NCBI GenBank assembly: GCA_937873385.1 | Contig: CALMYC010000251.1 | Location: 1 to 47,167, forward strand | Length of the DNA: 47,167 nt | Direction of reading: 5' to 3' | Source of the DNA: an uncultured Flavobacteriales bacterium | GTDB lineage: Bacteria; Bacteroidota; Bacteroidia; Flavobacteriales_F; PHOS-HE28 | Part shown: positions 31,413-31,917 of the stretch, piece after piece | Layout of the letters: the number at the start of each line of letters is the position of its first letter | Numbering within the stretch: the stretch's first letter is position 1 | Notes under the pieces: model-generated | Seen by the model: the letters and a program-made list of their open reading frames with translations, nothing else | The model's database searches: none | What the model was told of the DNA's origin: nothing | Made by a program: the position numbers and the translations under genes

Positions 31413-31430
31413 GGCTTGTTCCCTGGTCCT

Positions 31431-31543
31431 CAGGGTCCCCACCAGCGGCCTTTGCCGCCACTGCTGGGAAACCGCTGAGGGAGCTTCGACCCCAGGGTCC
31501 CCAAACCGGCTTTCCGGCTGTCGATGGGAGACCGCTGAGGGAG
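31431..31543. repeat. Two direct repeats of about 52 bp
   Basis: Unit 1 (31431-31483) and unit 2 (31493-31543) both begin CAGGGTCCCC and end ACCGCTGAGGGAG, with an inverted GC-rich centre (GGCCTTTGCCGCC and CCGGCTTTCCGG) and a shared GGGA before the end. They follow the guaD stop codon by 18 bases. They look like a dispersed intergenic repeat family. Confidence 0.8.
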
Positions 31544-31553
31544 TATAAACAAC

Positions 31554-31581
31554 GGAAAACCCCGCTTTCGCGGGGTTTTCC
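31554..31581. terminator. Terminator copy 1 of the tRNA-Gln cassette array
   Basis: GGAAAACCCCGC (31554-31565) pairs with GCGGGGTTTTCC (31570-31581), 12 bp, loop TTTC. Symmetric, so usable from both strands: it can stop guaD transcription from the left and the tRNA array from the right. Confidence 0.9.
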
Positions 31582-31582
31582 G

Positions 31583-31678
31583 TTGGCCGACCAGGGCTTC
31601 CCTTCGCTGCGCTCGGGACAAGCTTCGCGCTGGTGCCTTCCGGCACCTGCAAGTGCTGCGCACTTGCAGGTCGGCCAA
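31583..31678 (-). repeat. tRNA-Gln-derived cassette 2 (aberrant tRNA-like unit, 96 nt)
   Basis: Read on the minus strand it opens with TTGGCCGACC (31678-31669) and closes with AGCCCTGGTCGGCCAA (31598-31583). The closing 16 bases equal the 3' end of the real tRNA-Gln, and the first eight equal its 5' acceptor strand. The ends form a perfect 10-bp stem. The middle does not hold an anticodon arm; instead it has a 12-bp hairpin (ACCTGCAAGTGC/GCACTTGCAGGT) and a GGTGCC/GGCACC stem. It is followed by terminator copy 1. Confidence 0.8.
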
Positions 31679-31680
31679 CA

Positions 31681-31704
31681 AAAAACCCCGCTTTCGCGGG
31701 GTTT
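31681..31704. terminator. Terminator copy 2 of the tRNA-Gln cassette array
   Basis: AAAACCCCGC (31681-31690) pairs with GCGGGGTTTT (31695-31704), loop TTTC, with extra A on the left and T on the right. Same sequence as copies 1 and 3. Confidence 0.9.
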
Positions 31705-31708
31705 TTCC

Positions 31709-31812
31709 GTTGGCCGACCAGGGCTTCCCTCGACGCGAGACGCGCTCGGGATAAACTTCCCGCCAGGTGCCTCACGGCACCTGCAAGTGCTGCGCACTTG
31801 CAGGTCGGCCAA
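31709..31812 (-). repeat. tRNA-Gln-derived cassette 1 (aberrant tRNA-like unit, 104 nt)
   Basis: Minus-strand unit with TTGGCCGACC at its 5' end (31812-31803) and AGCCCTGGTCGGCCAA at its 3' end (31724-31709). The 5' half (12-bp hairpin with GCA loop, then GGTGCC GTGA GGCACC) is almost the same as in cassette 2. The 3' half before AGCCCTGG differs (a CGCGTCTCGCG stretch replaces CGCAGCG). Followed by terminator copy 2. D-arm, anticodon arm and most of the T-arm of a true tRNA are absent. Confidence 0.8.
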
Positions 31813-31814
31813 CA

Positions 31815-31840
31815 AAAAACCCCGCTTTCGCGGGGTTTTT
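31815..31840. terminator. Terminator copy 3, directly after tRNA-Gln
   Basis: AAAAACCCCGC (31815-31825) pairs with GCGGGGTTTTT (31830-31840), loop TTTC, 11 bp. On the minus strand it lies 3 bases after the tRNA 3' end (CGG between), a normal place for a tRNA terminator. Confidence 0.92.
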
Positions 31841-31843
31841 CCG

Positions 31844-31917
31844 TTGGCCGACCAGGGCTCGAACCTGGACTCTTCTGAACCAAAATCAGACGTGTTGCCA
31901 GTTACACCATCGGCCAA
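31844..31917 (-). tRNA. tRNA-Gln (anticodon UUG)
   Basis: A 74-nt cloverleaf on the minus strand. Acceptor stem TTGGCCG (31917-31911) with CGGCCAA (31850-31844). Anticodon stem TCTGA/TCAGA with loop TTTTGGT, giving anticodon TTG (plus-strand bases 31881-31883 read CAA). T-arm CCAGG-TTCGAGC-CCTGG. CCA is not encoded (CGG follows). It reads toward the terminator array and two partial copies of its own ends. Confidence 0.95.

Follow-up and report, generated by a model that had tools for sequence, protein, structure and literature searches.

The tRNA-Gln gene in the window (the whole 47,167-nucleotide stretch analyzed, from an uncultured Flavobacteriales bacterium) is followed by what are probably two tandem copies of a short, protein-less (non-autonomous) mobile element that inserts at the tRNA T loop and displaces the tRNA tail. 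We give this reading, which comes from sequence comparison, a probability of roughly 0.55. Support comes from the array structure, an empty site, linkage to tRNA genes of many isotypes throughout the phylum, a closing stem that covaries with the tRNA, a core that diverges as a module of its own, and cargo-bearing sister units.

The tRNA-Gln array and its empty site

On the minus strand the order is tRNA-Gln(TTG), terminator, cassette 1, terminator, cassette 2, terminator. Cassette 1 spans 31812–31710 (103 nt) and cassette 2 spans 31678–31583 (96 nt), with terminator hairpins at 31818–31837, 31684–31703 and 31558–31577. The tandem repeat in the array covers 94 nt at 98% identity with a spacing of 134, far beyond chance. 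The segment copied in each cassette is the tRNA-Gln tail, from nt 59 onward. Two cores in the following list carry scores from R1, a covariance model built from 12 tRNA-Gln cassettes; both belong to its training sequences, and their scores are to be read accordingly.

31844–31916 (−): tRNA-Gln, anticodon TTG (ARAGORN; Rfam RF00005, 62.6 bits)
31725–31858 (−): inserted unit 1, 134 nt, comprising tail, terminator 1, reverse-complement arm, hairpins and core (repeat coordinates; empty site in G028)
31814–31842 (−): terminator 1, between tail and reverse-complement tail (sequence; inverted repeat I8)
31803–31812 (−): cassette 1 reverse-complement arm, TTGGCCGACC (sequence)
31779–31805 (−): cassette 1 hairpin 1, 12 bp; subtype B only, pairing kept, sequence not conserved (repeat and comparison with relatives)
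31766–31781 (−): cassette 1 hairpin 2, GGTGCC/GGCACC (repeat and comparison with relatives)
31718–31767 (−): cassette 1 conserved core (GGGAAGTTTATCCCG..CGAGGGAA) and start of tail (model R1, 58.7 bits, as a training sequence)
31710–31725 (−): cassette 1 tail copy, AGCCCTGGTCGGCCAA (sequence)
31598–31724 (−): inserted unit 2, 127 nt, organized as unit 1 (alignment of the two units)
31680–31709 (−): terminator 2 (sequence)
31669–31678 (−): cassette 2 reverse-complement arm (sequence)
31645–31671 (−): cassette 2 hairpin 1 (sequence, repeat search)
31632–31647 (−): cassette 2 hairpin 2 (repeat search)
31591–31634 (−): cassette 2 conserved core (model R1, 50.1 bits, as a training sequence)
31583–31598 (−): cassette 2 tail copy, the displaced original tRNA tail (flank match to the empty site in G028)
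31550–31585 (−): terminator 3, probably the original terminator of tRNA-Gln (16-bp perfect palindrome I9; flank comparison)

The initial annotation of this DNA had already described the order of the array, the exact 16-nt tRNA 3′ end that closes each cassette, and the 12-bp and GGTGCC/GGCACC hairpins in both; all of these are confirmed, and its start and end positions are correct to within a few bases. It had also taken the cassettes to open with the tRNA 5′ acceptor strand, a reading that we replace. Reverse-complementing the tRNA tail GGTCGGCCAA gives the arm TTGGCCGACC exactly. The arm continues for two bases after the acceptor stem ends, and at that point the 5′ end of the tRNA has TGG rather than CC. 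Because its final CC agrees with the tail but differs from the tRNA 5′ end, the arm is best described as the tail copied in inverted orientation, and an origin from the tRNA 5′ end is unneeded. Over the window locus, ARAGORN and the Rfam tRNA model recognize tRNA-Gln and neither cassette. The window units contain no endonuclease or integrase gene.

Across the genus, tRNA-Gln loci carry zero, one, two or three cassettes, and cassette presence is patchy among close relatives and across isotypes. Genome G028 provides an empty site, with the same flank, a single tail and a single terminator. Compared with it, two units (134 and 127 nt) stand between tRNA nt 58 and the original tail, and alignment of the G028 flank with the window places the final tail and terminator of the array at the ancestral position. 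The two units are identical at 91 of 93 aligned positions outside the core and at 28 of 41 inside it (p = 2.9e-6); since divergence is greater inside, the core acts as a separate module. Downstream of the array lie two tandem REP-like hairpins (CTCCCTCAGCGG..GGGGACCCTGAGG; window 31428–31543, minus strand), present as one copy in the same place in G028.

Such arrays tend to collapse in assembly, several contigs end within them, and the source genome assembly is fragmented (359 contigs). At G000:C295:1-135 (L005), a tRNA-His, a terminator and a reverse-complement tail run into the contig end, probably another array lost in assembly.

The conserved core and its closing stem

The conserved part of the cassettes is the core, consisting of GAGAAGTTYATCCCG, a variable hairpin and CGGGAA; the tRNA tail, starting near nt 59, comes next. 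Core and tail are what all cassettes of the genus have in common. The 12-bp hairpin and the acceptor part are confined to one subtype, found in the source genome and in G031, G011, G042, G005 and G036. In that subtype hairpin 1 varies in sequence with its pairing retained, and an outer pair swaps between G-C and A-U in step with the tRNA.

The closing stem is paired with the tail and varies along with it (27 cassettes, six tRNA types); for example, where C60 of the tRNA becomes T60, the G of the arm becomes A. The closing and inner stems covary, with a score of 0.249 against 0.136 for shuffled controls (0 of 500 reach it) and at most 0.119 for slid controls. A first covariation test, which took tRNA-Gln cassettes alone, was uninformative. 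The internal loop of the core is near-invariant. In the inspected cassettes the arm is the reverse complement of the tail over 4 to 13 nt, and arms are perfectly Watson-Crick even where the tRNA T stem holds G-U (Asp, Leu). Derivation of the arm from the 5′ strand of the T stem was rejected, the Asp and Leu arms fitting the reverse-complemented tail and not the T stem.

The sequence of the variable hairpin does not follow isotype overall, which favors mobility. In the genus, nearest-neighbor cassettes share an isotype in 17 of 25 cases, against 7.7 expected; by this excess some cassettes are inherited in place, a point that counts against mobility. At L312 and L313 (both G130), one cassette with a Leu-CAG tail is found at both the Leu-GAG and the Leu-CAG gene, which we read as possible transfer or gene conversion between tRNA loci.

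Linkage to tRNA genes, sister elements and cargo

R1 has matches at E of 0.01 or better in 31 of the 45 genomes examined from the genus. Coding-sequence chance matches aside, these follow tRNA-Gln, Lys, Asp, His, Leu-GAG, Leu-CAG and Arg. A second covariance model (R2), built over several isotypes, detects the core in 41 of the 237 genomes sampled from the class, representing 30 of 132 genera, and in some other classes of the phylum, model calibration having been short. Locus inspection extends the range to Asn, Trp, Thr, Gly, Met and Ser tRNAs and to additional Leu and Arg tRNAs, and altogether the core is found at 18 anticodon types. At Gln, Lys, Asp, Asn, His, Trp, Leu, Met, Ser, Arg, Thr and Gly loci the copied tail agrees with the tRNA beside it. 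Intact cassettes of the genus carry the tail of the tRNA upstream, some decayed ones lack a tail, and cassettes always lie on the strand of their tRNA.

Among 116 distinct strict core matches in all fetched loci, a tRNA end lies at most 400 nt upstream on the same strand in 96, the 12-mer that follows is repeated upstream in 93 (random 12-mers, 2.9%), and one or the other feature is present in 106; this count is somewhat biased, as some loci were fetched for their tRNA, and the model searches are unbiased. Several loci in which ARAGORN finds no tRNA show a truncated one with the cassette still in place. L184, L272, L326, L327, L334 and L337 have 3′ parts of tRNAs only, followed by intact cassettes, which suggests subsequent insertions or deletions inside the tRNA. 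A ubiquitous dispersed repeat was rejected, since the genome has a single match when up to 3 mismatches are allowed. Carriage of the core by phages was likewise set aside: four of five viral-contig matches are coding sequence, and only L352 is tRNA-linked. Because this Bacteroidota-wide family sits almost only behind many kinds of tRNA genes, these genes seem to serve as a common target for tiny mobile elements.

Thirteen loci of the genus have a GIY-YIG gene (PF01541, about 85–120 aa) between a tRNA and its partial copy, which lies about 320–460 nt downstream of the tRNA. The tRNAs are Pro-GGG, Ala-GGC, Val-CAC, Met, Asn and Leu-TAA, and their copies usually have a TCCCG..CGGGA palindrome in place of the anticodon arm. 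One is the tRNA-Ala of the source genome: at G000:C43:5890-6222 (L260), tRNA-Ala(GGC) is followed by a terminator, a GIY-YIG gene (product roughly 85 aa) and a partial tRNA-Ala copy with the palindrome replacing the anticodon arm. The Val-CAC and Ala-GGC sites differ between species: where one species has a GIY-YIG unit, another has an ORF-less unit, with nearly identical 3′ ends. The complete related genome G041 has ORF-less versions at both Ala-GGC and Val-CAC, with ends nearly those of GIY-YIG units, and a tail copy within 250 nt at 7 of its 40 tRNA genes. We infer a link between the GIY-YIG elements and the core-type units of the window. The core itself was rejected as the end of GIY-YIG elements, its model giving zero matches in 70 loci fetched for GIY-YIG genes.

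Core-type units can be larger. In G174, a 1.9-kb unit behind tRNA-Leu(TAG) (L318:14474-16520) holds an ImmA/IrrE-like (Peptidase_M78) gene and a DUF4411/PIN gene and closes with core and tail; by sequence the two genes resemble a toxin-antitoxin-like pair carried as cargo. A candidate 7-kb cargo unit at L279 was dropped, as the locus is better explained by another tRNA-Asn gene that has decayed and carries a separate cassette.

Mechanism, alternatives and relation to known systems

The element would insert into the tRNA gene at the T loop, at about nt 58/59, leaving a regenerated tail and terminator beside the tRNA body. The old tail would be pushed downstream, behind the conserved end of the element, formed by the reverse-complement arm, GAGAAGTTYATCCCG, the variable hairpin and CGGGAA. 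We infer that the units move, in a homing-like process in which the tRNA gene would be acted on by a nuclease or recombinase and the tRNA restored through repair or recombination across its tail; the mobilizing enzyme would act in trans. The observations are consistent with elements that rebuild the tRNA and shift its former tail away, by analogy with endonuclease-bearing elements in fungal mitochondrial genes. There, mobile ORFs with an endonuclease replace the 3′ ends of atp6, atp9, cox2 and nad3; the ORF (LAGLIDADG; GIY-YIG in atp9) supplies a new 3′ end, and the native one is displaced downstream (PMC3630166). The GIY-YIG sister elements do likewise at tRNA genes, with the endonuclease gene inside the unit. 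At the window locus the host 3′ end is duplicated and, against the G028 empty site, the native copy lies downstream, with neither endonuclease nor integrase in the units. In contrast to the fungal ORFs, the hosts here are bacterial tRNA genes, the end is a conserved palindrome, and most units, including both in the window, are ORF-less.

The three origins proposed in the initial annotation are partly supported overall. Closest are repeated integration footprints at a tRNA 3′ end, for which insertion is backed by the empty site, tail duplication at many isotypes and the cargo-bearing sister units. Decayed tandem tRNA copies with palindromes fit in part: the related elements at other tRNAs copy the tRNA incompletely, with a palindrome in the place of the anticodon arm or T loop. 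A family of acceptor-stem mimics does not fit: most relatives lack the acceptor part and the 12-bp hairpin and retain just core and tail. The outcome named there as refuting, the same palindrome recurring at numerous loci away from tRNAs, is absent from the genome and family searches.

Several points weigh against mobile elements. Core-type units neither encode an enzyme nor are tied to one, and the core model misses the GIY-YIG sisters. An element moving among tRNAs must adopt the tail of each target, and a tail-complementary arm requires a templated origin or selection; simple integration explains neither. Tandem duplication and gene conversion could produce part of the pattern. A passive origin, in which palindromes (terminator, core hairpin) drive template switching and tandem duplication to give inverted and direct tail copies with no mobility, would account for the alternation of tail and reverse-complement tail around hairpins, for arms that stay Watson-Crick-perfect despite G-U in the Asp and Leu T stems, and for tandem copies with matching terminators. 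We consider it unlikely, given that one core sequence recurs across many genera and isotypes, that core and flanks of the window units diverge differently, and that units with cargo exist.

A functional structured RNA, in which the read-through cassette regulates or helps process the upstream tRNA, for instance by pairing of the arm with the tRNA tail, seems somewhat less improbable. The near-invariant internal loop, conserved closing- and inner-stem pairing and constant strand agree with it, and the arm can pair with the tail, the full transcript being predicted to break the cloverleaf. Yet a terminator precedes nearly every unit, the distribution is patchy across close relatives and isotypes, and the predicted protection of tRNA folding by the native arm and core failed. 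In thermodynamic folding, which disregards co-transcriptional folding and tRNA modification, acceptor pairing was 0.93 for the tRNA alone, 0.01 with the native cassette and 0.02 with shuffled ones. The idea that core and arm insulate the tRNA by hiding the duplicate tail was thus rejected, native cassettes being no better than shuffled. As read-through arm-tail pairing would disrupt the cloverleaf, the terminator before each unit would be important.

The least probable origin considered is as footprints of large tRNA-targeted integrative elements, the core being part of a tyrosine integrase attachment region left after deletion. tRNA tails are classical attachment sites for such elements, and at L352, an IMG/VR contig, a tRNA-Asn T arm, terminator, core and tail directly adjoin a Phage_integrase (tyrosine integrase) gene; the integrative element to which it belongs also has VapE-like and DUF3871 genes. 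That is the single integrase neighbor seen, and most units are 50–130 nt without remnant genes. Moreover, integrases are usually specific to one tRNA, whereas the core occurs at 18 anticodon types. The mobile elements preferred here do resemble tyrosine-integrase elements in duplicating the tRNA 3′ end and restoring the gene, but the window units are about 130 bp, have no integrase, and share one core that serves many tRNAs.

An integron-like cassette system anchored at Bacteroidota tRNA genes, with the folded arm-core-tail hairpin as the recombination site, units moved by an enzyme and stacked in tandem behind the tRNA, and endonucleases or toxin-antitoxin pairs as cargo of some units, is doubtful to about the same degree as a structured RNA. 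Like attC, the cassette end is an imperfect hairpin with a variable tip and an asymmetric internal loop, and sometimes there is gene cargo. The outer arms instead follow the tRNA tail (GTTGGCC/GGCCAAC here, varying with the tRNA elsewhere), the RYYYAAC and GTTRRRY sites of attC are absent, and no integron integrase was seen.

In E. coli, tyrT is followed by the rtT repeats, a tandem series in which every repeat carries a copy of the tRNA 3′ end; to our knowledge they are known from one tRNA. The window array is likewise a set of tandem repeats that carry the 3′ end of the preceding tRNA, but the cassette sequence differs, the family spans many isotypes and genera, and the Rfam rtT model has no match in the window locus or six relatives. 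REP palindromes are short, probably non-autonomous, and mobilized by RAYT transposases (PMC3733652). The cassettes are similar in being short, probably non-autonomous palindromes; they differ in that each genome has few of them, nearly all at tRNA tails with the copied tail at their flanks, rather than many dispersed extragenic copies.

No Rfam family matches the cassettes in the window locus and six relatives, and we found no earlier description of tRNA-linked GIY-YIG genes or tail repeats in the open literature searched. The cassette family is therefore previously unlisted relative to Rfam, Pfam and open papers. If the mobile reading is correct, tiny tail-duplicating elements, for which a search model now exists, would occupy a substantial fraction of the tRNA genes of a major phylum of bacteria (in the complete genome G041, 7 of 40); some assembly breaks at tRNA genes would be explained, and adaptation of the end of a short element to whichever tRNA precedes it would become testable.

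At L191:1030-1115, a cassette tail and its terminator match the Brucella sRNA BSnc120 below threshold (34 bits against a cut-off of 114); the terminators probably just resemble each other. A different cassette class, of about 155 nt, follows tRNA-Pro(CGG) at G000:C305 (L044/L325). It resembles the Leu-GAG cassettes of relatives, which share GATCCACTTCACGGCC with an Arg-TCT cassette.
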